Shown: in pieces, positions 27,582-62,389 of the stretch
How the letters are laid out: every line of letters starts with the position of its first letter
Numbering within the stretch: position 1 is the first letter of the stretch
NCBI RefSeq assembly: GCF_963675395.1
Contig: NZ_OY776222.1
Location: 62,001 to 126,000, forward strand
Reading direction: 5' to 3'
Source of the DNA: an uncultured Vibrio sp.
Lineage (GTDB): Bacteria > Pseudomonadota > Gammaproteobacteria > Enterobacterales > Vibrionaceae
Length of the DNA stretch: 64,000 bases
Program-made: the position numbers and the translations under genes
Notes under the pieces: model-generated
The model's input: the letters and a program-made list of their open reading frames with translations, nothing else
What the model was told of the DNA's origin: nothing
Databases searched by the model: none

Positions 27582-28154
27582 TTAGAAAACAAATAAATCT
27601 GCACCATGAGTGGTGATGTCTGTCTCAGTAATACCAACGAGCTTAACAGTTAAGTCAGCACCATCGGTAAAGATTGCATTACCCGCATTATCGTAACTAA
27701 AGCACAAGTCAGAGAAATCATTCACTGAACAGCTATTAATACGAATCAGATCTTCACCGATAGTAAAGTCAGCAACTTTTGCCTCACCGTGTCCATCATA
27801 ATTATCGGTGAATACAAATACGTCATCGCCTTCCCCACCAACCATAAAGTTGTTACCAGAGCCAGCAACCAGTACGTCGTTGCCGGTGCTACCATTTAGC
27901 GTGTTATCGCCCTGCAACCCATAAAGGATATCATCCCCATGGCCACCAGCCAGGTAGTCATCACCTGTACCACCTCTGATAACATCGTTACCTGCGCCAC
28001 CAACCAAATGGTCATTACCAGCCCCGCCGATCAATAGGTCATCGCCGCCGCCACCAACAAAAACATCATCGCCTTCAAACCCAACAAACAGATCATCTCC
28101 ACCTTCGAAATCAGAGATTACATCCGCTTCAGGTGTACCGTAATAGTCAGTCAT
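27582..28154 (-). CDS. Small RTX calcium-binding protein (CabA/MfpA-like)
   Basis: A 190-residue acidic protein. About eleven RTX nonapeptides run from residue 15 to 115 (units such as GGDDLLIGG, AGNDVIRGG, TGDDYLAGG). These form calcium-filled beta-roll turns. No catalytic or adhesion domain is attached. The end, GADLFVF, fits a type I C-terminal secretion signal (negative residue then hydrophobics). The ATG at 28154 has a strong GGGAG site. With its own exporter and VpsT-like regulators beside it, it resembles the biofilm matrix protein CabA of V. vulnificus and the mfpABC locus of V. parahaemolyticus; that equivalence is inference from recalled families. Confidence 0.85.
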   Translation of the reverse strand: MTDYYGTPEADVISDFEGGDDLFVGFEGDDVFVGGGGDDLLIGGAGNDHLVGGAGNDVIRGGTGDDYLAGGHGDDILYGLQGDNTLNGSTGNDVLVAGSGNNFMVGGEGDDVFVFTDNYDGHGEAKVADFTIGEDLIRINSCSVNDFSDLCFSYDNAGNAIFTDGADLTVKLVGITETDITTHGADLFVF

Positions 28155-28393
28155 TTCTTCACTCCCTTTGTTTCGGCTTAACAATCGAGCACATCTATTA
28201 ATATTATCTCTATTGTATTCGGCCTGATTAGATTGCTTACTGCAACCAAAATTCTAGTCGGCAAGAGAGTGTCTAATAGTTTGAATAAGGCATGATATTT
28301 AAACCTAATACTAATTTAGTAAAACACTATCGGCGTTAGTTAATTTAGTATGAGTTTAACCCCTGTATTGAACGGAATAATATCTCGCTAAGA

Positions 28394-29038
28394 CTATAAA
28401 TTTCTTTTTGCCCAATTCGTGGCTTGAGTTCTATTTTTCACATCCAACTTTCTAAAAATATTATATAAATGAGACTTAATAGTATGTTCGCTGATAAATA
28501 GTGAATCAGCAATCTCCATGTTTGATCCACCATCTTTTAACATTTTCAAAACTTGTATCTCGCGTCGAGTGAGCTCAACCTCTACTGTAGGTTCGACAAT
28601 GGGCGACATTTCTTTTTCTTTATAGTAACTTACCATCTGCTCTAAAAGCCTACGAGGCAACCAGTTATCCCCTTTCATGATGGCGATAAGTCCTTGGCAC
28701 ACCATATCAATAGAATCCCGCGGGCCAAATATACCTTTTACTGCAGGCCAAGATGCTAGTTCTTCGATGTTGAGTTCATGTCCCCGGTTGATCATGATCG
28801 TACCTAGTACTTTACTACTATTCTTTAAGTAAGCTAAAGTTTCAGAATTCATATCAACCGAAAAGTCGACTAGTAAAAAGTAACGAGTTGGAGTGCATTC
28901 ATGATAACTCGGTTTTCTACAATCTAAGATCGTTATTTTTGTTTCAGTATTTATAGAAAGCATTTGCTTAAAGTTTTCACTCTGTAAGCTCTGCTTCGTG
29001 ATCATTAGGACCTCAGGCTTTTCCATTTTCTGTTCCAT
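28394..29038 (-). CDS. LuxR-family regulator, VpsT/CsgD/CpsQ-like
   Basis: The N-terminal 130 residues form a receiver-like domain without an obvious phosphoacceptor pocket. The C-terminal helix-turn-helix is LTRREIQVLKMLKDGGSNMEI, then ADSLFISEHTIKSHLYNIFRKL. In the position where VpsT-type proteins carry the cyclic-di-GMP-binding W-[FLM]-[TS]-R motif, this protein has WLPR (GDNWLPRRLLEQ). It lies 239 bp upstream of the RTX start on the same strand, so it probably activates the RTX/type I genes. By position it would be the CpsQ counterpart of V. parahaemolyticus, but I cannot confirm that. Confidence 0.82.
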   Translation of the reverse strand: MEQKMEKPEVLMITKQSLQSENFKQMLSINTETKITILDCRKPSYHECTPTRYFLLVDFSVDMNSETLAYLKNSSKVLGTIMINRGHELNIEELASWPAVKGIFGPRDSIDMVCQGLIAIMKGDNWLPRRLLEQMVSYYKEKEMSPIVEPTVEVELTRREIQVLKMLKDGGSNMEIADSLFISEHTIKSHLYNIFRKLDVKNRTQATNWAKRNL

Positions 29039-29184
29039 AATGTTTCTCAGACTTTCATTAACTTAATGCTCATTAATTAGTAGTGAGTCATTAACTATCT
29101 AATTCATCCCTAAGTATTAAGAAAGATAGATTACGGGTATTTTTATTTGTTTAAAATTGCAAAATAGTTAAAAACCTAAACAAA

Positions 29185-29214
29185 AAAAGTGTTTCTCATA
29201 AAAGAAACACTTTT
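29185..29214 (-). terminator. Terminator of the upstream LuxR-type gene
   Basis: Arms AAAAGTGTTTCT and AGAAACACTTTT form a 12-bp stem with a 6-base loop. An A run on the plus strand supplies the U tract for the minus-strand transcript. It separates the two regulator genes into separate transcription units. Confidence 0.82.
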
Positions 29215-29278
29215 CTCATTATTTAAATTACATCCAACAAAATCCATAATAGAAATGCTGGCATTAATTTTTATAGAT

Positions 29279-29947
29279 TTAAACAGGTATAGAGTATTCA
29301 GAGATATTCTCTTTTGCCCAGATAAGCGCTTGCACTCTATTCTTTACTTCAATTTTCTTAAAGATGTTGTGTAAGTGAGTCTTCACGGTATTTTCGCTAA
29401 CAAACAACTGTTCAGCGATTTGTTGATTCGACGCTCCCATTGCAAGAAAAGTGATTATTTGCAGCTCTCTTTTGGTTAAGATGCTTGGGGCTTGTTTGTA
29501 GACTGGCTTGCTGTTCTGACGAAGATGAGTAATATATTGCTGCGAAAATTTACGACTGAACCACATATCACCCTGTAAGATCTTATTAATACCAGTTTGT
29601 AGCGTTTGAACATCATCAGAAGTATAAAAAATACCCACTAGCGTGTTCCAAAGAAAAAGCTCTTCCTTAGCGATCGCTCTATCGCAGTTAATCAGGATTT
29701 CTCGAATACCCGTAAATTCTGACTCCTTAAAGCTCCGGTATAACAAAAGCGTATCATCTGTCAGAATACTGAAGTCTAAAATAATGGCTGAAATGGGCTG
29801 ACCTTGAAACGATCGGCTAGTCAGGTTTTCTGGCGTTATCAAAATCACGCTTATGCCGAGCTGAGTTTCTAAAACATCCTTCAATAAAGATGATTGTAAA
29901 CTTCCCTCGGTAATTAAAATGATATCCCCTGTCGTGTGATACTCCAT
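29279..29947 (-). CDS. Second VpsT/CsgD-like LuxR regulator with WFSR motif
   Basis: Same architecture as its neighbour: a receiver-like N-terminus and a LuxR helix-turn-helix (LTKRELQIITFLAMGASNQQI, then AEQLFVSENTVKTHLHNIFKKI). It carries the canonical cyclic-di-GMP-binding tetrad WFSR (GDMWFSRKFSQQ), identical to that known in VpsT. It therefore probably needs cyclic di-GMP to dimerise and bind DNA. The two regulators share pattern and length (222 and 214 residues) and look like an old tandem duplication. A strong terminator lies behind it. Confidence 0.85.
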   Translation of the reverse strand: MEYHTTGDIILITEGSLQSSLLKDVLETQLGISVILITPENLTSRSFQGQPISAIILDFSILTDDTLLLYRSFKESEFTGIREILINCDRAIAKEELFLWNTLVGIFYTSDDVQTLQTGINKILQGDMWFSRKFSQQYITHLRQNSKPVYKQAPSILTKRELQIITFLAMGASNQQIAEQLFVSENTVKTHLHNIFKKIEVKNRVQALIWAKENISEYSIPV

Positions 29948-30208: not shown

Positions 30209-31534
30209 ATGCACGTTTCTCAAGCCCTCAACATCATCAACAGCTACAAACCAAATCAAGTTGAGACACTCGCAGATCTCCTGCCAATTGAACTCATCAA
30301 TAGTGCTTACGAGCTTACTGACACCGTTACTCTAAGAAAACGAAAGCTAACTTTAGAGTCGATGGCGTGGTTACTGGTTGGCATGGCAATTTATAACGAT
30401 AAGTCCATGGCTGACATTGTAAATATGCTCGATATTGTTGACCGAACAGGTAAACCATTTGTTGCTCCAAGTGCATTAACACAGCGAAGAAAAAACCTCG
30501 GTGAGTCAGCGGCTAAAGCTCTTTTTGAGTGTACGCAAAGTCATTGGTTTAAGCAGGCTAATTTACCAAACTGGAACGGACTCACTCTTCTTGGCGTTGA
30601 TGGTGTCTTGTGGCGAACTGAGGACTCAAAAGAGAACGCTGAAGCGTTTGCAAAGCCTACCAATCGTGACGGTAAAGAAACACAGTATCCACAAGTACGT
30701 ATGGTATGTCAGATGGAATTGAGCAGCCATTTAATCACAGGCAGTGCCTTTGACTGTTATAGCGTCAATGAAATGAAGTTAGCAGAGCAGCTTATAGAGA
30801 CGACACCTGATAATAGTTTAACCCTTTTTGATAAAGGCTTTTACTCCCTTGGCCTACTTCAAGCGTGGAGCTCGCAAGGGATAAATCGACATTGGCTTAT
30901 CCCTATGAAAAAAGGACTCACTTATGACGTCGTTCAGTCTCTTGGCCGCCAAGATAAACTGATAAAACTGAAGAGTAATCCGCAAGCGCGTAAGAAGTGG
31001 CCAGAGCTAGGACAAGAAGTTGTTGTACGTTTAATCACGAGAGTCAAAGATGGTAGGCAATACGATGTTCTCACTTCAATGCTTGACCCTATGCTCTACC
31101 CAAAGTTAGATATCGTAGGCTTATATGGGTATCGTTGGGAAATTGAACTCGGCTACCGTGAGCAAAAACAGTACATGCTTGGTAACCGACTCACGCTTCG
31201 AAGTCGACTCCCTGAATTAGTGAAGCAAGAACTCTGGGGAATACTACTGACCTATAACTTGGTCAGGTATCAAATGGTGCAGATGTGTAATACGTTGAAT
31301 GGAGACTACTTACCCTACCAACTTAGCTTCAATGGGGCATTAGCTCACATCATGCGCCTGATAGTGGGACTTCCATACTCGTCACCAGGAGCAATCCCGA
31401 GGCAACTCCAAAACTTCTACTCAATGAGTGAGAGCTTAATACTTGGACCTAGGCGAGAAAGATCCTTCCCTAGAGTCGTTAAGAAAAAGCCAAGCCGATA
31501 CCCTAGAAAAAACAATGCCGCTCACCTTAAGTGA
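30209..31534 (+). CDS. IS4-family transposase
   Basis: A 441-residue DDE transposase. An N-terminal IS4 domain (about 20-110) is followed by the catalytic core: the first Asp in [13 protein letters not shown], the second in [14 protein letters not shown], and the C-terminal Y-(2)-R-(3)-E-(6)-K signature in [17 protein letters not shown] very basic tail ([20 protein letters not shown]) ends it. No interruption is visible. No ordinary ribosome site precedes the ATG, consistent with weak expression. Confidence 0.93.
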
Positions 31535-31772: not shown

Positions 31773-32019
31773 AGTACTTACCTAAATATAACCATTGAAC
31801 TTTTAACTCCCTCTATTCTATCCAAGTCTATCGCTTCACGCTACCAAGCATCTCATAAGGGCTATTACTCTGCTTTCATCACCCGCCTTAAAGGCTTGTA
31901 ATACTTGTCAATGACCCAATATTGAAAGGATAGTTTTCAACGTCGTACTGGGAACTTTTTCTACCAAGTAAATGACCAATACTGATAATCAACTCAAATG
32001 GATATCGAGAGCCCACATC

Positions 32020-32976
32020 ATGCATAAATCTAACTTCGAAACGCTTCAACGATACCTCGAATCTCAAATAATTGGTCAACAGGACCTGGTTAAACAATTG
32101 TTGATCGCCCTTCTTGCTGACGGGCATATTTTGGTTGAAGGACCTCCAGGCCTGGCGAAAACCCGAGCCGTTAAATCGCTATCAGACTGCGTTGAAGGTG
32201 ACTTCCACCGCATTCAGTTCACTCCTGATTTGCTGCCGGCAGATTTAACCGGTACTGATATCTTCCGACCTGAGACAGGGGAATTCACTTTTCAGTCCGG
32301 CCCTATCTTTAACTCACTCATTCTTGCAGACGAGATTAACCGAGCGCCGGCAAAGGTTCAGGCGGCGATGCTTGAAGCCATGGCAGAGAAACAAGTCACT
32401 GCCGGGCGCCATACTTATGCGTTGCCTGAACTATTCTTAGTAATGGCGACTCAGAACCCAATCGAACAAGAGGGAACTTACCCGCTTCCAGAAGCACAAC
32501 TAGACCGATTTTTGCTGCATTTAGAAGTGAACTACCCAGACGCGGAGCATGAACTGGCGATATTGCGTATAAACCGAGGGGAAGCGAAAGGGGAAGCGGC
32601 ACTTGAGCGTCCAAGTATCAGTCAACAAGATATCTTCACCGCACGAAAAGAGGTGCTCGATATTCATATGGCCGAAACGATCGAGCAGTACATCGTGCGT
32701 CTGGTTATGGCGACACGTCAAGCTAACGAGTATGACAGCGAGCTGGATAAATGGTTGGCCATGGGTGTCAGCCCCCGCGCCACAATTGCCTTAGACCGAT
32801 GTGCTCGAGCTCATGCTTGGCTCAAAGGGCGTGACTTTGTTTCACCAGAAGACGTACAAACCATGGCATATCCCGTTCTGCGTCACCGTTTACTACTGAG
32901 CTACCATGCGCAGGCAGAAGGCATCAGTGCAAACCAAGTCATTGACAAGTTACTTAACCTTGTTGGCAGCGCGTAA
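32020..32976 (+). CDS. MoxR-family AAA+ ATPase
   Basis: A 318-residue AAA+ protein. Walker A is GPPGLAKTRA, Walker B LILADEINRAPAKVQ, sensor 1 ATQNPIEQEGTYPLPEAQLDRF, and the lid domain contains SPRATIALDRCARAHAWLKGRD. MoxR ATPases act as chaperones for VWA proteins, here encoded two and three genes downstream. The ATG at 32020 is chosen because family proteins begin just before this conserved region. It is the first of six closely spaced genes. Confidence 0.92.
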   Translation: MHKSNFETLQRYLESQIIGQQDLVKQLLIALLADGHILVEGPPGLAKTRAVKSLSDCVEGDFHRIQFTPDLLPADLTGTDIFRPETGEFTFQSGPIFNSLILADEINRAPAKVQAAMLEAMAEKQVTAGRHTYALPELFLVMATQNPIEQEGTYPLPEAQLDRFLLHLEVNYPDAEHELAILRINRGEAKGEAALERPSISQQDIFTARKEVLDIHMAETIEQYIVRLVMATRQANEYDSELDKWLAMGVSPRATIALDRCARAHAWLKGRDFVSPEDVQTMAYPVLRHRLLLSYHAQAEGISANQVIDKLLNLVGSA

Positions 32977-32981
32977 AACAG

Positions 32982-33917
32982 GTGAGCAAGATGTCTGCAA
33001 CACAGCCATTGCCACCTCATGCAAATGGGGTGACATTAAACTTAGAAGAGCTTCTGCATCATCGGACTCAATCGATCCGATGGTTACCACCAGCACAAAG
33101 TCTTTGGTCACAGATGAGCGGGAGCCATACCAGCCGCCAAAAAGGTCGCGGCATGGACTTTATGGAAGTACGCCAATACCAAGCCGGAGATGATATCCGT
33201 AGTATTGATTGGCGAGTCACCGCGCGCACAGGCAAAGCACACACGAAGTTGTTCGCCAAAGACAAAGAGCAAGCGGTGATTATCTACATTGACTTGAGCT
33301 CTAGTCTTCACTTTGGCTCGCGTTATGTATTGAAGTCCGTACAGTTGGCCCACTTCGCCAGTATATTAATCTGGTTAACCTTAGCGAAGAAAGACCGCAT
33401 CGGGGCCGTCATTGATAATGGACATCAGTGCCTGGAGTTCCGTCCCTCTTCATTACAAAAGCAGGGGCTGAGGATCCTAAATGCCATTATCAATACTCAT
33501 AATGAACAGCTATCAGCGATAGAAACAAATGGACGCCGTTCTATGTCTTATTCTCAAGTATTCGAAACACTGCATACGTTAACCCCAAAAGGCAGTGAGC
33601 TGATTCTGCTCAGTGACTTTTCACAAACAGGCGAAAATGAATTGACCCAGCTACGTCGGCTCAGACAACACAACACCGTTAGAGCCATTCAGTTTTTTGA
33701 TCCATTAGAACGAGGAGAGACGGACTTCCGAGGTCAGGTTAAAGCGTCTGATGGTCGTCGTAGTCAGTGGTTTAATTTTGGTTCTAAAGGGGAACGTAGC
33801 GAGCTCGAATCGCATTTTTCGGCACACCAAGAGACTATCAAGCAGCTATGTCATTCGATGGCGATTCCATTTAACAGCCTGTCAAGTGGCTCTCCACTAC
33901 TCAAACAACTAAGCTAG
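32982..33917 (+). CDS. DUF58 protein of the Bat operon
   Basis: A 311-residue protein with the DUF58 core GRGMDFMEVRQYQAGDDIRSIDWRV and a degenerate VWA-like fold beginning VIIYIDLSSSLHFG. DUF58 proteins always accompany MoxR ATPases and are probably partners in the same assembly. It starts 5 bp after the moxR stop. Confidence 0.9.
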   Translation: MSKMSATQPLPPHANGVTLNLEELLHHRTQSIRWLPPAQSLWSQMSGSHTSRQKGRGMDFMEVRQYQAGDDIRSIDWRVTARTGKAHTKLFAKDKEQAVIIYIDLSSSLHFGSRYVLKSVQLAHFASILIWLTLAKKDRIGAVIDNGHQCLEFRPSSLQKQGLRILNAIINTHNEQLSAIETNGRRSMSYSQVFETLHTLTPKGSELILLSDFSQTGENELTQLRRLRQHNTVRAIQFFDPLERGETDFRGQVKASDGRRSQWFNFGSKGERSELESHFSAHQETIKQLCHSMAIPFNSLSSGSPLLKQLS

Positions 33918-33946: not shown

Positions 33947-34423
33947 ATGACAACAAATAACCAAAGCCTTAACCTTGAACCTTTGATTTTACCTAATGCT
34001 CCAGATTGGTTCCCACTCGCTTGGGGATGGTGGGCACTCATCGCAGGTATTGTCCTGACTATTTTAGGCGTATACCTTTACTTCAAGTGGCGCACTAAAC
34101 GTCTACTCGCAAAAAGAACTGCCTTAACGCTGCTGATAAAATCTGTCACACCTCATACCCCGTCTTCCGCTTTAGAGATCTTACGTCAGGCGGCTTTGAG
34201 CTACTTTCCTCGCGAAGAGATTGCCCCTCTCACTGGTGCAGCTTGGTATGAGTTTCTAGATAGTCATACCGAAGAGAGTCGATTTACAGATAAACAGCAA
34301 CAGTGGCAGACCGCCTTGTATCAGAAACCCTCTCAGGGACAAAATCAGGATTTAATTGAAGACTGTGTTTTCTGGGTAAGCCATGCTTTGCCACCGAAGA
34401 AAAAGGCCAACACCCGTGACTGA
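33947..34423 (+). CDS. DUF4381 membrane protein
   Basis: A 158-residue protein with one membrane helix at about residues 25-47 (WGWWALIAGIVLTILGVYLYFKW) preceded by a short PDWFPLA segment. A helical cytoplasmic domain with EILRQAALSYFPREEIAPLTGAAWYEFLD follows, the DUF4381 pattern. It lies between the DUF58 and VWA genes, 29 bp after the first and overlapping the second by 8 bp. Confidence 0.87.
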   Translation: MTTNNQSLNLEPLILPNAPDWFPLAWGWWALIAGIVLTILGVYLYFKWRTKRLLAKRTALTLLIKSVTPHTPSSALEILRQAALSYFPREEIAPLTGAAWYEFLDSHTEESRFTDKQQQWQTALYQKPSQGQNQDLIEDCVFWVSHALPPKKKANTRD

Positions 34424-35420
34424 ACCAACCTTAGCAACCGGCCTTAGCCAATGGTTGAATATTGAATTTGTCTGGTGGTGGGCACTGTTTTTACTGCCCC
34501 TGCCCTTGCTTGTTTACAAACTGCTGCCGCAAGAAAGCCAGCAAGCAGAGATTAAACTGGCTTATTTACCGGACAATACACACAGCAGAAAACCAAAACA
34601 ATGGCTGCAAAAAGCATTGTCCCTTGCCATATGGGTCTTGTTAGTCATCACCTGCGCGCGACCAGTCTGGTTCGGTCAACCGATAGAGTTTCAACCGAAA
34701 TACCGAGACTTAATGTTAGTGGTTGACCTTTCCGTCTCGATGCAAAAAGAAGACATGAACTTAAACGGTGAGTTTACCGACCGGCTTACCGCCGTGAAAA
34801 AAGTCTTATCTGATTTTGTGGCGAAGCGTAAAGGGGATCGCTTAGGTGTGGTATTGTTCGGTGACCACGCTTATCTGCAAACCCCATTAACGGCGGACCG
34901 AGACACGGTCATGCAACAAATTAACCAAACAGTGATTGGCTTAGTTGGGCAACGAACCGCCTTGGGTGACGGTATTGGTCTAGGAACCAAAACGTTTGTC
35001 GATAGTGATGCGCCGCAGCGCGTGATGATTTTACTCAGTGACGGCGGAAATACCGCGGGTGTTTTAGATCCGATAGAAGCTGCAAAAATCGCGAAGAAAT
35101 ACAACGCCACAATTTATACCGTAGGTGTGGGCGCGGGCGAAATGATGGTCAAAGAGTTTTTCATGACGCGTAAAGTGGACACCGCCGCGGATCTTGATGA
35201 AAAGACCCTGACCCAAATTGCCGAAGTGACGGGAGGTCAATACTTCCGCGCAAGAGATGCGGAGCAGCTTAAAAATATCTACGCAACCATTAATCAATTA
35301 GAACCTGTCTCCAGTGACACCCAAACATGGCGTCCTCAATCCGAATGGTTCCGCTACCCGTTAAGTGCTGCATTGGGGCTGTCCGTGTTGTTATTCTTGC
35401 TAAGGAGAAAACATGGCTGA
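34416..35420 (+). CDS. BatA-like VWA membrane protein
   Basis: A VWA domain lies between membrane helices: N-terminal helices near residues 20-40 and 62-80, the MIDAS metal site VVDLSVSMQKED (DxSxS), a ILLSDGGNTAG second metal motif, and a final helix (LSAALGLSVLLFLLRRK). The likely start is the GTG at 34416, inside the end of the previous gene; an in-frame ATG at 34383 gives an implausible basic extension. The MIDAS is intact, so metal-dependent ligand binding is expected. Confidence 0.88.
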   Translation: MTEPTLATGLSQWLNIEFVWWWALFLLPLPLLVYKLLPQESQQAEIKLAYLPDNTHSRKPKQWLQKALSLAIWVLLVITCARPVWFGQPIEFQPKYRDLMLVVDLSVSMQKEDMNLNGEFTDRLTAVKKVLSDFVAKRKGDRLGVVLFGDHAYLQTPLTADRDTVMQQINQTVIGLVGQRTALGDGIGLGTKTFVDSDAPQRVMILLSDGGNTAGVLDPIEAAKIAKKYNATIYTVGVGAGEMMVKEFFMTRKVDTAADLDEKTLTQIAEVTGGQYFRARDAEQLKNIYATINQLEPVSSDTQTWRPQSEWFRYPLSAALGLSVLLFLLRRKHG

Positions 35421-37299
35421 GTTTATTTTCCTCCACCCTGTTTGGCTTACTGGTCTGATCGCGATTCCCATCGCGCTGACTCTGACTAAAAAATTGACGG
35501 GCAAACGTTCGGCGCTTATAGCCCCCCATTTAGCGAAAGTGTTGGGGCATTCATTGCAATCAAAGCACTACTTTACCCTTTGGGGGATCTCATGGGCCAT
35601 AGCCAGCATTGCACTGGCAGGACCAAGTTGGCAATCGAACCAGCGTCCGAGCTTTAAGTTGAGTCAAAACCGTATCTTGGTGCTCGATATGTCGCGCTCC
35701 ATGTACGCGACGGATATCACACCAAACCGGTTGGCACAAACACGCTACAAGGCACTAGACTTACTGCCGAACTGGAAAGAAGGCACTACAGGGCTTGTCG
35801 CTTACGCAGGTGATGCTTACAGCTTGAGCCCTCTCACGACAGACTCTAATACGTTAGCAGGCATTATCGAGAACTTGTCCCCTGACTTGATGCCTTTTCA
35901 GGGGGCGAATCTACCTTCTGCCATTGAGTTGGCGTTGAATCAGTTTTCGCAAGCCGGGACCAATCAAGGCGACATCATTGTATTGGCCGACGATCTTGAC
36001 GATTCTGAGCTAACCAGCTCACTTAATCTATTGAAAGGCACAAGCTTCCGTGTCTCTGTCCTTGCAATTGGTACTGCAAATGGCGCGCCTATCACCCTAC
36101 CGAATGGCTCCCAACTCAAGAATAACCAAGGGGCAACGGTGATCGCGAAAACCCATCTGAAAAACCTACAGCTGCTCGCCAATGAAACCGGTGGGATCTT
36201 TGTCCCGATTCAGTATAGTAATCGCGATGTGGAAACCATCGCCTCTTTTACCAATAATTCCGGTAATAACCTTGCAGCCAAACAACACGACGATGTACAA
36301 ACTGACTCGCGAATGAACGGGGGTTTTTGGCTGTTACCATTGTTGTTAGTTCCTGCGGCTCTACTTTTCCGCCGCGGTGTAATTTGGCTATTCATTGCAG
36401 GACTCACTCCTATGACTTGGACCGCCAAAGTTGAAGCAAACCCATTCTTAAATGAAAACCAACAAGGTGCCGAGCTCTATCTGCAAGGAGACTATGAACA
36501 AGCACAGCGTGTTTTTACCGATCCAAATTGGAAAGGTGCGGCGAGTTACCAAAGCGGAGATTATGAAATGGCAATCAAAGCGTTTTCTGATAATCCTTCA
36601 TTTGAAGGACGATATAACCTCGCTAATGCTCTGGCTCAAAATGGTCAGCTCGAAGAAGCTGCGGACCTATATAAACAACTGATACAAGAAAGACCAGATT
36701 TCGAATCAGCGAAGAAAAACCTCTCAGTGGTAGAGGAGAAACAGAAGCAGCAGCAACAGCAGCAACAGCAGCAACAGCAGCAACAGCAGCAACAGCAGCA
36801 ACAGCAGCAACAGCAGCAACAGCAGCAACAGCAGCAACAGCAGCAACAGCAGCAACAGCAGCAACAGCAGCAACAGCAGCAACAGCAGCAACAGCAGCAA
36901 CAGCAGCAACAGCAGCAACAGCAGCAACAGCAGCAACAGCAGCAACAGCAGCAACAGCAGCAACAGCAGCAACAGCAGCAACAGCAGCAACAGTCTCAAA
37001 ATGATAAGGATAAAGAGCAAGGGCAGCAGTCACAAAACCAGCAAGACTCTGAAAAGAAAAAGGAAAGCCAACCAAAAGAGTCGGAACGTAACCATCAAAA
37101 CGAGGACAATACGTCGGAGCAAGATGCTCAACCGATGAATGCACAGGCTCAGCCAGAAAAGTCGCATCAGGATGATCCTGAATTCCGCCGTCTGGAGGCA
37201 GTGGAAAGCGCGCGAGATCCAAGCTTTCTAATTCGCGCACAAATGCAGTTGCAAGCACAACAAAAACAACGCCCACAACAAACTCAAAAGGAGTGGTAA
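35413..37299 (+). CDS. BatB/BatC-like VWA-TPR protein with 82-residue polyglutamine run
   Basis: A 628-residue protein. Two N-terminal membrane helices, a VWA domain with MIDAS VLDMSRSMYATD, a helix pair near 305-340 and then TPR repeats (GAELYLQGDYEQAQRVF, YNLANALAQNGQLEEAADLY) near 345-430. A run of 82 consecutive Gln follows at about residues 446-527. After it comes a charged Gln/Lys/Glu-rich tail ending RRLEAVESARDPSFLIRAQM, conserved in the family. The TPR and Gln parts should lie in the periplasm. It overlaps the preceding gene by 8 bp. Many homologues have Gln-rich linkers; a pure run of this size is unusual. Confidence 0.9.
   Translation: MAEFIFLHPVWLTGLIAIPIALTLTKKLTGKRSALIAPHLAKVLGHSLQSKHYFTLWGISWAIASIALAGPSWQSNQRPSFKLSQNRILVLDMSRSMYATDITPNRLAQTRYKALDLLPNWKEGTTGLVAYAGDAYSLSPLTTDSNTLAGIIENLSPDLMPFQGANLPSAIELALNQFSQAGTNQGDIIVLADDLDDSELTSSLNLLKGTSFRVSVLAIGTANGAPITLPNGSQLKNNQGATVIAKTHLKNLQLLANETGGIFVPIQYSNRDVETIASFTNNSGNNLAAKQHDDVQTDSRMNGGFWLLPLLLVPAALLFRRGVIWLFIAGLTPMTWTAKVEANPFLNENQQGAELYLQGDYEQAQRVFTDPNWKGAASYQSGDYEMAIKAFSDNPSFEGRYNLANALAQNGQLEEAADLYKQLIQERPDFESAKKNLSVVEEKQKQQQQQQQQQQQQQQQQQQQQQQQQQQQQQQQQQQQQQQQQQQQQQQQQQQQQQQQQQQQQQQQQQQQQQQQQQQQQQQQQQQSQNDKDKEQGQQSQNQQDSEKKKESQPKESERNHQNEDNTSEQDAQPMNAQAQPEKSHQDDPEFRRLEAVESARDPSFLIRAQMQLQAQQKQRPQQTQKEW
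36748..36993 (+). repeat. Pure (CAGCAGCAA)n tandem repeat encoding polyglutamine
   Basis: This 246-base tract consists of the 9-bp unit CAG-CAG-CAA repeated 27 times plus a final CAG, without a single interruption that I can see. It stays in frame for any whole-unit change. Such perfect tracts expand and contract by replication slippage. Confidence 0.97.
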
Positions 37300-37303
37300 G
37301 CCA

Positions 37304-38950
37304 GTGATGAAAAAAGGCGTAATGCTGGTCTTTGTTCTTTTGACCAGCCTGTTATCGAGTGTTTCGGTAATGGCTCAAAGTCTTGAAGCAAGTGTCAACA
37401 AAACCCAAGCAGTGAAGAACGAAGTAATCAATCTTCGAGTCATGGCGGATACTGAGCTGAGTTCCGATGCGATCGATTTTAGTGTATTAGAAAAAGACTT
37501 TTTCTTAGGGCAACCTCGCTACGGTCGCTCAAGCAACAATATTAATGGTCGCAAATTTTTACGTACCGAGTGGAGTATCTCTATCGCGCCTATGAAGGAA
37601 GGGATATTAACCATTCCAAGCTTTAGCGTAGATGGAATGCGCACTGAGCCAATAAAATTGCGTGTAACCGCTAGCCAAACGGAGCCGAAGCTCGATGAAC
37701 TATTCAGCTTCACAATGAGCGTAGACAACCATACCTTATACCCGCAGCAATCGGCGAGCTTACGTATGCAACTCATAATCAAAGCGGATACTCGTCGCTT
37801 GGACAACCCTAAGATCATTCCTCCGACCATTGATGGAATGAAACTCGAACCCGTTGGAGAAATGCAACAAGGTCAGCAAGTCATGGATGGGCTTGAAGTG
37901 ACGGTTGTAGAGCAATCTTTCCGTCTAACCGCAGATACAGCGGGTACTTACACACTAAATGGCCCGCAACTTACCGGCTCGTACATTTACGGTGATAGGC
38001 TGACAGGATCAACCCAAATATTGCCAATCAAAACCAACGTTGAACAAATGCCAATTACGGTCAAAGCCATTCCTGAGGAGTTCCAGGGTAAATGGTTACC
38101 AGCCTCGGCGTTGGAGATGACGCAAAGTTGGCAAAATGACGCGGGTAACAAGCTATCGCCAAATAGTTTGAATAAGGTAAAACAAGGCTCATCCATCACC
38201 CGCACTATCCAAATCAAGGCACGCGGGACCCAAGCGGAGTTCTTACCTAGAATTGATATCGATTACCCAGCTTCACTGCGTGTATATCCAGAGCAACCGA
38301 AGTTTGAAACAACGCGAGATGGCACTCTGGTCATGACGGTAAAACACGTCATCATACCAACGGAAGCCGGCACTTATTCCCTGCCCGACTATACACTTAA
38401 CTGGTGGAATAGCAGCCAGGACGAAGCCAAACAGGCAACGCTCGATTCCATCGAGCTGGATGTGGAGGAAAGTGATATGGGCTTGATTACGTTGCCAGAA
38501 ACGACTCTGCCACAAACGTCAGTCCCTACAGCGTCCCCGACTCCTCAAAATGGTGTCAATCAGCTATGGCAAGTCCTCACTTTTGTCTTTGCAGGACTGT
38601 GGGTAACGACATCAATCATCACGTTTGTGGTTTGGAAAAAGCGTCCCGCAGCCAATAAAGGTCATGAGGTAGAAACCAAGTCCCTTAGTGGCATTGATGA
38701 GCTCAAAAATGTGATCCAGCAAGGTGACCCTGCAAAGATTGAAAGGGTCGTCAGCGACTACCTACAAGCCAACCGTGAATCGTTGAATTCAGATGTCGTG
38801 GAAGCAGTTAAGCACGATCTTGAAGTGATGAATCAAGCTCGTTTTAGCGCCCAACAACAGCCTTGGAGCTCAGATTCTCTGTTAGCTAATATCGAAAAGT
38901 TATCAAAGTCGAAAAGAACGCAACCTAACCCTCAACTTGAAAAGCTATAA
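37304..38950 (+). CDS. BatD-like oxygen-tolerance protein
   Basis: A 548-residue protein with a signal peptide (MKKGVMLVFVLLTSLLSSVSVMAQ), several beta-rich immunoglobulin-like domains, and one C-terminal membrane helix near residues 420-445 (LWQVLTFVFAGLWVTTSIITF) followed by a cytoplasmic helical tail. The pattern SIAPMKEGILTIPSF and the later IIPTEAGTYSLPDY are BatD hallmarks. It is the last gene of the six-gene operon, 4 bp after the BatB-like gene. The start may be 37304 or 37307. Confidence 0.88.
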   Translation: MMKKGVMLVFVLLTSLLSSVSVMAQSLEASVNKTQAVKNEVINLRVMADTELSSDAIDFSVLEKDFFLGQPRYGRSSNNINGRKFLRTEWSISIAPMKEGILTIPSFSVDGMRTEPIKLRVTASQTEPKLDELFSFTMSVDNHTLYPQQSASLRMQLIIKADTRRLDNPKIIPPTIDGMKLEPVGEMQQGQQVMDGLEVTVVEQSFRLTADTAGTYTLNGPQLTGSYIYGDRLTGSTQILPIKTNVEQMPITVKAIPEEFQGKWLPASALEMTQSWQNDAGNKLSPNSLNKVKQGSSITRTIQIKARGTQAEFLPRIDIDYPASLRVYPEQPKFETTRDGTLVMTVKHVIIPTEAGTYSLPDYTLNWWNSSQDEAKQATLDSIELDVEESDMGLITLPETTLPQTSVPTASPTPQNGVNQLWQVLTFVFAGLWVTTSIITFVVWKKRPAANKGHEVETKSLSGIDELKNVIQQGDPAKIERVVSDYLQANRESLNSDVVEAVKHDLEVMNQARFSAQQQPWSSDSLLANIEKLSKSKRTQPNPQLEKL

Positions 38951-39016: not shown

Positions 39017-39766
39017 TTAACCGAAGTCACCGTTTACGTAACCTTGAGTTCGGTCATCTTGTGGGCTGTTGAAGATCACTTGGGTATCGTTGTGCTCAAC
39101 CAGTTCCCCCATCAGGAAGAACGCAGTGCGGTCAGAAATACGACGCGCCTGTTGCATTGAGTGAGTCACGATAACGATGGTGTAGTCCTTCTTAAGCTCT
39201 TCCATCAGCTCTTCAATTTTATGCGTTGCAATTGGATCAAGTGCCGAGGTTGGCTCATCCATTAGGATCACATCTGGTTCCATAGCGATTGTGCGTGCAA
39301 TACACAGACGTTGTTGCTGACCACCAGACAGTCCAAATGCATGCGACTTAAGACGATCTTTCACTTCGTCCCAAAGTGCCGCGCCACGTAGTGAACGTTC
39401 AACCACTTCATCAATGTGCTTTTTGTCTTTAACCCCTTGAGCACGCAAACCGTAAGCCACGTTCTCGTAAATGCTCATTGGGAATGGATTCGGCTTTTGG
39501 AATACCATACCGACTTTAATACGAAGATCCGCGACATCAATATTGCCGTAAATATCTTCTCCATCCATCGCTAGCTTACCAGTGATCTTAACGCCTTCGA
39601 TAAGATCGTTCATGCGGTTCAGACAACGTAGCAATGTCGACTTACCACAGCCTGATGGTCCGATAAGCGCCGTTACCTGACGAACTGGAATAGGCAGGTG
39701 AATGGATTTCAGTGCTTGGTTTTCGCCGTAAAATAGGTCTAGGTTTTCAATGTCAAACTTGTTCAT
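39017..39766 (-). CDS. pstB: Phosphate ABC transporter ATPase PstB
   Basis: A 249-residue ABC ATPase: Walker [11 protein letters not shown]-loop [12 protein letters not shown] (typical of PstB), signature LSGGQQQR, Walker [13 protein letters not shown], and the H-loop [10 protein letters not shown]. It powers high-affinity phosphate import through PstCA. It is the fourth gene of pstSCAB, 60 bp after pstA. No phoU gene follows. Confidence 0.96.
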
Positions 39767-39826
39767 GCTCTTAATCTCTTAAATCTTGAATTCGTGTCTT
39801 TTAACGTGCGTTCTTAATTTGATTTG

Positions 39827-40699
39827 TTAGTAAGTTGCGGTGTTAAAACGTCTTGCAATCAGTTTAGTCACCGTGTTGATCAAAAGTACAACCACGATAA
39901 GCACTGTTGCGGTACCGTATGCCTGATTCCATTCTTCAACGGTAAACAGTTCGGTAGTCAGTTTGTATAGGTGAACGGTTAGCGTACGACCTGAATCGAA
40001 TAGAGAATCAGGAATACGAGCCACCATACCTGCTGTCAGGAACACTGGAGCAGACTCACCAATGACACGACCAATACTAAGAATGACCGAGGTTAAAATA
40101 CCTGGCATTGCGCTTGGAAGAATCAAACGCCAGATAGTGTAGATTTTAGAAGCGCCAAGGCCGTAAGAGCCTTCACGATACGTTTGTGGTACTGCCATTA
40201 GCGCTTCTTCCGTCGTACGGATGATAACTGGCAGAATCAGAATACTTAGTGTCAGTGCACCCGATAGAATCGAGAATCCAAGACCAAGAATTGCCACGAA
40301 GAAAGTCATACCAAACAGACCGAAGATGATCGACGGGATACCTGCCAGGGATTCAGTACAGAATCGAATCACTTTCACCAAACGGCTGCCCACTTTGGCG
40401 TATTCAGTCAGGTAAATTGCCGTCATGATACCCAGCGGTGCGGCCACTGCGATAGATGCGATAACCATATAGATGGTTGACACAATCATCGGGAAGATAC
40501 CATGCTCATCACCAGTACGAGTGTAGTCGTCAGTAATGAAGTTCCAATCTACGTGTTGTAGACCGTTTGATAGGATGTACCAGATAATCCAGAACAAAAA
40601 GCCTACCGTTAATCCAGCCGAGATCCAAACGAAAGCGTTAAAGACGTTATCTTTGAACTGGCGAGCTTGTTTTAGTTTTGCGCGATCCATAATTGTCAC
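39827..40699 (-). CDS. pstA: Phosphate ABC transporter permease PstA
   Basis: A 290-residue membrane protein with six hydrophobic segments and the permease EAA-type loop (VPQTYREGSYGLGASKIYTIW, then RLILPSAMPGILTSV). It starts with a cytoplasmic basic segment. It pairs with PstC, whose gene ends 13 bp upstream. Confidence 0.94.
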   Translation of the reverse strand: MTIMDRAKLKQARQFKDNVFNAFVWISAGLTVGFLFWIIWYILSNGLQHVDWNFITDDYTRTGDEHGIFPMIVSTIYMVIASIAVAAPLGIMTAIYLTEYAKVGSRLVKVIRFCTESLAGIPSIIFGLFGMTFFVAILGLGFSILSGALTLSILILPVIIRTTEEALMAVPQTYREGSYGLGASKIYTIWRLILPSAMPGILTSVILSIGRVIGESAPVFLTAGMVARIPDSLFDSGRTLTVHLYKLTTELFTVEEWNQAYGTATVLIVVVLLINTVTKLIARRFNTATY

Positions 40700-40712
40700 C
40701 TTTAACGAGCGA

Positions 40713-41645
40713 TTACTTCGCTTTTTCTCGGTTTAGGTAAAGAAGTACAGCGTTCAACGACATGATGAAGACCAGCAGTACCACACCAGTTGCGTACAGT
40801 GCGTTCGCGTGAACACCACTTGCGTAAGACATTTCAATCGCAATATTCGCGGTTAGCGTACGTGCAGAGTCCAGAATGCCTTCTGGCATGGCTGGTGCGT
40901 TACCCATCACCATGATGATTGCCATCGTTTCACCCAAAGCACGACCGATACCAAGAATGACACCCGTCATAATTCCCGAACGAGCCGCAGGAACAAGCAA
41001 TTTAAAAATGGTGTAAATTTTTGAAGCGCCAAGTGCCAATGAACCTTCTTTGTATGCACGAGGTACTGCACGGATAGACGTTTCAGAGACCGTAATTACC
41101 GTAGGTAGAATCATCACGCCCAGAACGATGATACCGGCAAGAATTGTGTTACCGGCTGGTACATTGAAGATATTTTGAATCAATGGAACGATGATAACCA
41201 AACCGAAGAAACCATAAACCACCGAAGGGATACCAGCGAGAAGTTCTACGGCTGGACGAATGATGTCAGCCAAACGCTTTGGTGCTATTTCAGCGATAAA
41301 GATAGCGGTCAAAACACCAACCGGAACACCAACCATTACCGCGCCAGCCGTCGAAACGATGGAAGCGACAATCATGGTTGCTACGCCGTAAAGCGCAGGT
41401 GGAAGCCAGTTTTGACCTAAAACGATGCCCGAAACCCCAACTTCTTGAAATGCGGGAATGCTCTCTCGAACAATAAAGTAGGCAATTACGGCTAATGATA
41501 CGATACCGATAACGGCACTGGTGAGGAACAAGCCGTGGAAGATGCGCTCTTTCCAGTCAATACTACGTTTTTCTCGTAGGCGTGGCTTGCTGATAGCTTT
41601 AGCGTCTGTATTCATAAGCTTTTCACTATTTGTCGCGATGGTCAT
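40713..41645 (-). CDS. pstC: Phosphate ABC transporter permease PstC
   Basis: A 310-residue permease with six membrane segments. The EAA-type loop reads VPRAYKEGSLALGASKIYTIF, then KLLVPAARSGIMTGV; the sequence LLAGIPSVVYGFFGL is typical of PstC. The first ~30 residues are cytoplasmic and basic. An alternative ATG (LMNTDAK) lies 10 codons in. Confidence 0.94.
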   Translation of the reverse strand: MTIATNSEKLMNTDAKAISKPRLREKRSIDWKERIFHGLFLTSAVIGIVSLAVIAYFIVRESIPAFQEVGVSGIVLGQNWLPPALYGVATMIVASIVSTAGAVMVGVPVGVLTAIFIAEIAPKRLADIIRPAVELLAGIPSVVYGFFGLVIIVPLIQNIFNVPAGNTILAGIIVLGVMILPTVITVSETSIRAVPRAYKEGSLALGASKIYTIFKLLVPAARSGIMTGVILGIGRALGETMAIIMVMGNAPAMPEGILDSARTLTANIAIEMSYASGVHANALYATGVVLLVFIMSLNAVLLYLNREKAK

Positions 41646-41698
41646 TATAAAAATCTCACGGTTCTGGACAATAGCCAGTGAACACTATGGATAGAAAG

Positions 41699-41724
41699 GC
41701 TCAGCCCTAAACAGCGGGCTGAGC
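41699..41724 (-). promoter_or_regulatory. Intercistronic hairpin between pstS and pstC
   Basis: Perfect 9-bp arms GCTCAGCCC/GGGCTGAGC with an 8-base loop lie just after pstS. There is no U run. It could stabilise pstS mRNA or partly stop transcription, making binding protein exceed permease. Confidence 0.6.
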
Positions 41725-41746
41725 AAAGTTAAGAATCCCGGTAGGA

Positions 41747-42571
41747 TTAGTGGATTGAAATGTAACCGTTTTGGTCAACTAGCTTTTGAGCATCTTCAGT
41801 TAGCATCCAATCTAGGAATTTTTGCGTTTCAGCAGATGGCTGGCCTTCTTTGTAAAGAACAAGGAACGGGCGAGCTACTTTGTAAGAACCGTTCTTAACG
41901 TTAGCCACTGTCGCGTCTACGCTGTCGATTGCTAGAGCGTGAACTGTGTTGTCAACAGTACCTAGAGAGATGTAGCCGATTGAGTATGGGTTAGAAGCAA
42001 CCATAGTTTTCAGAGCACCGTTACCGTTAGCAACTTGAGCGCGTTGAGAAATAGCAGAAACTTTCTTACCAGAAACTTTCATTTTAAGCGCCATGATGTC
42101 TTCGAATGCACCACGAGTACCAGACGCGGTATCACGAGTGATTGCTACGATTGGTTTGTCTTCGCCGCCCACTTCTTTCCAGTTTGATACTTCACCCTTG
42201 TAGATAGAAGTGACTTGCTCCGCAGTCAGGCCTTTAAGCTTGTTTTGAGGGTTAACAACAACTGCGATACCGTCGCGAGCAATTACTTCTTCGATAAGAG
42301 TTGGTTCTTTTTCTGAATCTTTTAGGTTACGAGAAGACATACCTAGATCAGCAGAACCATTTTTTGCTGCTTTTACACCAGCAGAAGAACCTGGGCCTTG
42401 AACTTCGATAAATACTTCTGGGTTCTTCTTCATGTATGTTTCAGAGAAAACTTCCATCAGTGGAGTTACGCTGCTAGAACCCACTGCAGAGATAGTTTCT
42501 TTAGCAGAAACAGGAGTCACTGCCATTGCGCCTAGAAGTGCGATTGCACCGATTACTGTCTTTTTCATCAC
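41747..42571 (-). CDS. pstS: Phosphate-binding protein PstS
   Basis: A 274-residue periplasmic binding protein. Signal peptide MMKKTVIGAIALLGAMAVTPVSA is cleaved near residue 23. Phosphate-binding segments are visible: AVGSSSVTPLME, GPGSSAGVKAA, LGMSSRNLK, and TRDTASGTRGAFE. It is shorter than E. coli PstS and of the type found on vibrio chromosome 2. First gene of the operon. Confidence 0.94.
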   Translation of the reverse strand: MMKKTVIGAIALLGAMAVTPVSAKETISAVGSSSVTPLMEVFSETYMKKNPEVFIEVQGPGSSAGVKAAKNGSADLGMSSRNLKDSEKEPTLIEEVIARDGIAVVVNPQNKLKGLTAEQVTSIYKGEVSNWKEVGGEDKPIVAITRDTASGTRGAFEDIMALKMKVSGKKVSAISQRAQVANGNGALKTMVASNPYSIGYISLGTVDNTVHALAIDSVDATVANVKNGSYKVARPFLVLYKEGQPSAETQKFLDWMLTEDAQKLVDQNGYISIH

Positions 42572-61616: not shown

Positions 61617-62389
61617 TACTTACCTCCTTTTAGAGACTCTAGTGCACCTGTCGGTACAGGGTTCTCTTCCGGAAGCACATTCTCCAGAGGTTTATTTATC
61701 TCCTGCCAACCGAAGTTGTAGTGGCTACCAACTTTGCCTTTAGCTAAGTCAGTAGGTACGACCTTAATGGCAGAAACATCCAGCACACAAGCCTGCTCGC
61801 ATTTACCACAACCCGTGCAGATATCGGTATTAACGGTTGGAATCAGCTTGGCATGGTAGCCCGTGCGGTCATTATGAATTTTCTCTAAAGTAATCGCTTC
61901 ATCAATAAGAGGACAGACTCGATAACAAACATCACAACGTAAGCCCTGCCAGTTAAGGCACGTTTCATGATCGATGAGTACAGCCGTCCCCATGCGCGCG
62001 TCATCAATGTTGGTTAATTCAGGATCGAGAGCACCACTCGGACACGCCACCACACACGGAATATCATCACACATTTCACATGGTATATTGCGGGCGTTGA
62101 AATATGGCGACCCGGTCGCAACTGGGGACAGTAACGTGGCCAGCTTTAATGTATCGTACGGGCATGCTTGGACACACAACCCGCAACGGATGCAAGCTGA
62201 TTCAAAATCGCCTTCCGGCAGAGCACCTGGCGGCTTTATTGGCACACTTTTGGTTTCGCGGGCTTGGCTTTGTAAAGACTGTAGCCCCAATACACAGGCC
62301 GCTGCACCAACGCCCATTGCAGTTCGAGCAGTATCACGCAAAAATCGGCGACGACTTTGGGACATTTTTGATGGGAAGGATTTCATCAT
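61616..62389 (-). CDS. napG: Ferredoxin-type protein NapG
   Basis: A 257-residue periplasmic ferredoxin. A Tat signal ([10 protein letters not shown]) leads into a hydrophobic stretch, then four [4Fe-4S] motifs: [35 protein letters not shown], the [17 protein letters not shown] cluster, and [14 protein letters not shown]. It works with NapH. No napA, napB, napC, napD or napF is next to the pair. Confidence 0.94.

Follow-up and report, generated by a model that had tools for sequence, protein, structure and literature searches.

An 82-residue polyglutamine tract in a Vibrio BatB-BatC protein is an unusually long, 9-bp member of a genus-wide repeat known from cholera as a standard typing marker

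Why would a Bat protein from a Vibrio carry 82 glutamines in a row, and is the run an oddity of one genome? We examined this tract in a window of 64,000 nucleotides from an uncultured Vibrio sp. (positions 62,001 to 126,000 of contig NZ_OY776222.1 in RefSeq assembly GCF_963675395.1). We found that it is a 9-bp and unusually long member of a polyglutamine repeat that is present across the genus, and that the counterpart of this repeat in cholera is a standard typing marker.

We begin with the tract itself. Tandem Repeats Finder describes it as a repeat of period 9 with 27.3 copies, 100% matches, 0 indels, and a score of 492 (consensus CAGCAGCAA). Translation gives 27 units of CAGCAGCAA and then CAG, which together code for 82 glutamines, in frame within a 628-aa open reading frame (Table 1). 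This is exactly the uninterrupted 9-bp repeat that the initial annotation had described. It also lies where that annotation had placed it, between the TPR region and a conserved tail, with the BatC-like match (residues 340-486) before it and the conserved C-terminal tail after it. In the entire genome (4,765,384 bases in two contigs), the tract is the sole site with a run of at least eight CAR codons: the scan gave 75 overlapping matches, every one of them inside the tract, and a control pattern gave 0. (On the minus strand, two open frames cross the repeat: 36623-37276, which is rich in valine and alanine, and 36724-37020, which would encode polyleucine. We do not take these as genes.)

The protein had been annotated as a BatB/C-like protein with VWA and TPR domains, and our results agree. 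Pfam identifies both domains (VWA_2, 2e-13; TPR_2, 5e-10). Two NCBIfam models, first BatB (residues 84-278) and then BatC (residues 340-486, which reaches into the tract), hit the protein one after the other, although neither match reaches its curated cut-off (72.8 of 350 bits and 44.1 of 175 bits). In the NCBI listing, these are exception models named for Leptospira. Because a BatB match is followed by a BatC match on the same chain, albeit below the cut-offs, the protein is best called a BatB-BatC fusion. Both Leptospira models match the window's protein, but there the BatB and BatC parts form a single chain that also contains polyglutamine. In the VWA domain, D92, S94, S96, T142, and D193 (the DxSxS, T, and D residues), which we take to be the metal site, are invariant or nearly so in the 69 rows of our alignment. 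Solved BatB structures from Bacteroides share the VWA fold and are the protein's best matches in both sequence and fold (PDB:3ibs, TMt 0.90; PDB:4jdu, TMt 0.87).

The gene's neighbors are also those of a Bat protein: MoxR, DUF58, BatA, and BatD are all present, in the tightly packed order moxR-DUF58-DUF4381-batA-batB/C-batD. The batA-like gene overlaps the BatB-BatC gene by 8 bases, and a gap of 4 bases separates the BatB-BatC gene from the BatD-like gene. Just outside the cluster, an IS4-type transposase gene (30209-31534) is directly upstream of moxR, and an apparent phosphate transport (Pst) cluster, which we named by eye from the translations, adjoins the bat genes (39017-42571, minus strand). 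The window also encodes two adjoining VpsT-like regulators of the LuxR family (28394-29947, minus strand) and a small protein of RTX calcium-binding repeats (27582-28184, minus strand).

Table 1. The bat gene cluster and the parts of the BatB-BatC protein, in window coordinates
Feature	Coordinates	Strand	Basis
MoxR AAA+ ATPase	31972..32976	+	AAA_3, AAA_lid_2
DUF58 protein	32982..33917	+	PF01882
DUF4381 protein	33947..34423	+	PF14316
BatA-like VWA protein	34383..35420	+	PF00092; PF07584 (BatA) below cut-off
Fused BatB-BatC protein (VWA, TPR, polyQ, linker, tail), 628 aa	35413..37299	+	Pfam VWA_2 and TPR; NCBIfam BatB and BatC below curated cut-offs
VWA domain, residues 84-278	35662..36246	+	Pfam; NCBIfam BatB; best solved relatives 3ibs (BatB) and 4jdu
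Predicted membrane hairpin with RRG turn, residues ~303-330	36319..36402	+	Hydropathy and model helices; topology inferred
TPR region, residues 348-445	36454..36747	+	Pfam TPR_2 and TPR_1; model helices
Polyglutamine tract, (CAGCAGCAA)27 CAG, residues 446-527	36748..36993	+	Tandem Repeats Finder and translation
Low-complexity hydrophilic linker, residues 528-588	36994..37176	+	Lowest alignment conservation; pLDDT <50
Conserved C-terminal tail helices, residues 589-616	37177..37260	+	Conservation; model helices 589-601 and 603-616
BatD-like protein	37304..38950	+	PF13584

Is the length of the tract real, or is the true tract shorter or longer than the assembly suggests? Draft assemblies do break at this repeat. 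In six drafts, the contig stops in the tract or a few residues past it (L016, L017, L021, L022, L023, and L025), and many database proteins terminate between residues 444 and 456 (1006 of them in a single cluster). Also, three close loci from drafts or MAGs have only 15-32 glutamines (15 in L005 and 32 in both L003 and L013, which look alike). On the other hand, the window's genome assembled into two contigs, and a pair of equally close relatives with the 9-bp unit and closed, 2-contig genomes have 86 glutamines (L007/G153) and 107 glutamines (L009/G040). An artefact is extremely improbable. The long tract is credible, but for the precise figure of 27 units we depend on the assembly. The repeat itself probably explains why so many drafts and database records contain a truncated version of the Bat protein.

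Polyglutamine of this length had been described as rare in bacteria, but at this Bat locus, a run of glutamines is the rule in Vibrio. We found a homologue of the BatB-BatC protein in 191 of 196 Vibrio genomes and read the best-scoring 150 of them, leaving out the 41 that scored lower. Of these, 137 are intact. (We set aside 8 that are cut by a contig end, 4 that stop before the tail, which we took to be frame breaks, and 1 that is masked.) The longest run among the intact copies has a median of 22 glutamines and a range of 2-107: it reaches at least 5 glutamines in 131 copies, at least 10 in 121, at least 20 in 81, at least 40 in 23, and at least 80 in 7, and 6 copies have fewer than 5. In genomes of at most 5 contigs, which supply 67 of the intact copies, the median is 21. 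A protein collection gives another picture, as none of the 120 homologues listed there (of 566 matches) has a run of more than 11 glutamines. Given how many of the genome copies have at least 10, the collection seems to lack the longer ones, which biases its lengths.

The run also starts at nearly the same position in almost every copy. Among 130 tracts of at least 10 glutamines, 124 start 5-11 residues past the residue that aligns to Asn436, which is right behind the TPR region. In other genera of the family, 19 intact homologues have runs of 3-49 glutamines (27 were read; about 71 genomes had a match). Outside the family but within the order, we found no run of more than 6 glutamines in the 23 homologues that we read (about 74 genomes had a match). 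As far as we read, polyglutamine at this site is a trait of the Vibrionaceae on an older glutamine-rich linker.

Several copies depart from this pattern. Two members of the window's clade, the species of L018 and L025, have a (QQQQQQD)n array with a 21-bp unit where the tract would be. In other clades, the linker after the tract contains repeated QQG, QQN, SQD, or QQS arrays (L053, L067, L082, L083, L087, L102, and others). In L014, L019, L024, and L155, translation stops prematurely, be it upstream of the tract, inside it, or beyond it (two of these genomes have at most 3 contigs), and this could be either a real change or a sequencing error.

The repeat units point to how the tracts are maintained. 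Of 114 tracts with at least 15 glutamines, 100 are built of the hexamer CAGCAA and 9 of the nonamer CAGCAGCAA; of the other five, four are of mixed type and one consists of CAA alone. Among these tracts, the 9-bp unit was seen only in the window's clade, where three mixed tracts either combine 9- and 6-bp units or change phase. Flawless cores, with no off-pattern codon, are found in 108 of the 110 tracts of this size that we classified. The initial annotation had read the purity of the window's tract as a sign of recent and active expansion. Active turnover is upheld by the alleles of orthologues (see below), but since pure cores occur across the genus, a single recent expansion is ruled out as the cause of the purity. 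Instead, the pure cores fit repeated slippage and homogenisation. If the polymerase slips by units of 6 or 9 bp during replication, a tract would stay pure, with each step changing the protein by 2 or 3 glutamines, and gains or losses of whole units would leave the frame intact. (Hairpin energies are suggestive: (CAG)27 folds more strongly than repeats that contain CAA.) We can also rule out on/off phase variation by slippage, because both 6- and 9-bp units preserve the frame. In a contingency locus the frame is switched on and off, and the 9-bp unit of the window's tract keeps it.

Does the number of units vary between strains? We had one genome per species; copy-number variation between strains is shown for orthologues only. 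The most informative orthologue is from cholera. VC4 is a TGCTGT repeat on cholera chromosome 2 with published typing primers (PMC4482140). Both primers match one genome (L115/G034; 4.1 Mb, 2 contigs) exactly, whereas at the second-best site the two primers together have 9 mismatches. From the primer match, this genome is probably V. cholerae. The primer product has 223 bases and 14 copies of TGCTGT, and it brackets the orthologous tract, which is 28 glutamines in the protein. The exact match and the bracketed tract identify the orthologue with a known hypervariable locus. Another marker, VCA0171, has the motif gctgtt (PMC6905556), which is the TGCTGT repeat in another register, and from the motif and the chromosome, we infer that VC4, VcA, and VCA0171 are one locus.

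The cholera repeat was first reported in 2002. Published typing studies describe 19 alleles of VCA0171 among 7th-pandemic isolates (PMC3438101), 7-24 repeats in isolates from Thailand (PMC6125998), and 21 alleles among 170 Kenyan isolates (PMC3358164). Within a single patient in Haiti, 15 of 20 colonies had 13 repeats and 5 of 20 had 14 (PMC3377427). This hypervariable repeat of V. cholerae resembles the window's tract in its gene, in its place after the TPR region, in coding for glutamine, and in staying in frame. They differ in unit and size: the V. cholerae repeat has a 6-bp unit (TGCTGT; 14 copies and 28 glutamines in the matching genome), while the window's tract, at the orthologous place, has the 9-bp CAGCAGCAA and 82 glutamines. 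In a full-text search of mostly open-access literature, no paper mentioned VCA0171 along with "von Willebrand" or "glutamine", and within these searches we did not see the marker connected in print to the glutamines of the Bat protein. The position across the genus and the hint of length compensation (see below) are results of the present analysis.

Two other species have variable arrays as well. In V. alginolyticus, batB is described as ending in 55 copies of GCAACA, and an 18-bp deletion in it is common to eight phage-resistant mutants (PMC8521149). By that description, the array is on chromosome 2, has the same annotation (TPR domain protein in aerotolerance operon), and is of polyglutamine size, but with a 6-bp unit instead of the window's 9-bp unit. 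(That paper terms the 18-bp loss a frame shift, yet 18 is a multiple of 3.) In V. parahaemolyticus, entries with 5, 6, 7, 8, 9, and 11 glutamines appear among the 120 homologues listed, of 566 matches, in the length-biased protein collection. So, the in-frame changes in unit number that had been proposed for the window's tract are seen in its orthologues.

These unit changes might be selected, as graded variation by which Bat activity is matched to stress. The high turnover of alleles in the V. cholerae VNTR would fit, as would the loss that the eight V. alginolyticus mutants have in common. But the authors of the latter study predict no direct relation between the batB deletion and phage resistance (PMC8521149), and a shared deletion may predate the selection. 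Also, we did not find a link between allele and phenotype in the parts of the VNTR literature that we examined. Selected tuning of this kind seems quite unlikely.

We then considered the structure of the protein. In a predicted structure (mean pLDDT 75.6, from 69 sequences), the last TPR helix runs from residue 431 to 504 and is followed by disorder and then by the helical tail (589-616). Confidence in this block is about 88-92 up to around residue 480, but pLDDT falls below 60 towards the distal end of the tract. (Structure models may favor helix for polyglutamine.) Conservation is high in the tail (0.64 for residues 586-616) and in the VWA domain (0.63), while no part of the alignment is less conserved than the linker (528-585; 0.32). 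The start of the tract behind the TPR region, the model, and the conserved tail beyond a variable linker suggest a spacer between two conserved parts.

As for which side of the membrane these parts are on, a hydropathy scan found helices at 4-22 and 301-328 only. The model has helices at 303-318 and 323-330 in a hairpin, and near the N-terminus it adds a second helix (53-69), which is absent from the hydropathy result. With helix 53-69 and the RRG turn, the TPR region, the tract, and the tail would be periplasmic. From hydropathy and the model, we think that this is probably correct, with the caveat that it leans partly on helix 53-69.

A long polyglutamine helix might also pair with others or aggregate, and so cluster Bat complexes in the membrane. 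The general behavior of polyglutamine and the long helix in the model are consistent with this, but the six intact copies with fewer than 5 glutamines argue against it, and we consider it very unlikely. Aggregation had been called conceivable, and nothing in our analysis supports it.

If the tract is a spacer, is the total length conserved? The standard deviation is 19.9 for tract length and 28.8 for the remaining residues beyond the TPR region, with a raw correlation of -0.67 between them. Their sum has a standard deviation of 21.4, versus about 35 expected under independence. Across clade means, the length of polyglutamine is inversely related to that of the remaining linker (rho of -0.95, -0.83, -0.84, -0.81, and -0.73 for 8, 12, 16, 24, and 32 clades; p values for clade means are not free of phylogeny). 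Phylogenetic least squares (PGLS) gives a slope of -0.19 (p = 0.036, n = 137), or -0.32 for closed genomes (p = 0.014, n = 67). When the window's clade is left out, PGLS loses significance (p = 0.21), and under four definitions of the tract, three were significant and one was not (p = 0.27 and 0.18). Also, a point change inside a run shifts residues from the tract to the rest by definition. Independent contrasts between tract and linker found no relationship (r = -0.05, p = 0.58, n = 137; closed genomes, r = -0.04, p = 0.72). We keep compensation only as a deep, clade-level trend.

We read this as fast and nearly free slippage at the tips, under loose limits over the long term. The proposal that the repeat tunes the length of the linker is plausible: some evidence points to a total length that is loosely conserved between clades, but for regulated tuning we have no evidence. 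A stronger version is a self-adjusting ruler, in which the reach from TPR to tail is conserved and fast slippage of polyglutamine replaces lost linker. We hold this as a tentative possibility.

Alternatively, a disordered linker may simply tolerate a slippage-prone repeat, so that the polyglutamine does nothing and its length drifts. The lack of compensation in independent contrasts would be expected, and the range of run lengths in intact genes and the QQG, SQD, QQS, and QQN arrays in the same linker of other clades also fit. However, the run is kept in nearly all of the intact Vibrio copies and nearly always has one start place, and the inverse relationship at the clade level also counts against drift. 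A purely neutral by-product seems somewhat unlikely.

Overall, we lean slightly towards a tether: an in-frame slippage VNTR that would form a length-tolerant connection between the TPR region and the conserved C-terminal helix of the BatB-BatC fusion. The tract would extend the last TPR helix, and the hydrophilic, partly helical tether would hold the C-terminal helix away from the membrane-anchored VWA/TPR part. Single alleles would then be close to interchangeable, and over long times, the total length after the TPR region would be loosely kept (clade medians are 166-203 residues, including the tail).

These results give a repeat known as a typing marker its place in a protein of defined architecture. 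And as a polyglutamine tract is kept at one place throughout a bacterial genus, the function of bacterial polyglutamine becomes testable in a fast-growing laboratory Vibrio such as V. natriegens, whose homologue has 87% identity over residues 1-440. If the tract does act as a self-adjusting ruler, then the cholera typing locus would report the tether length of an envelope machine.
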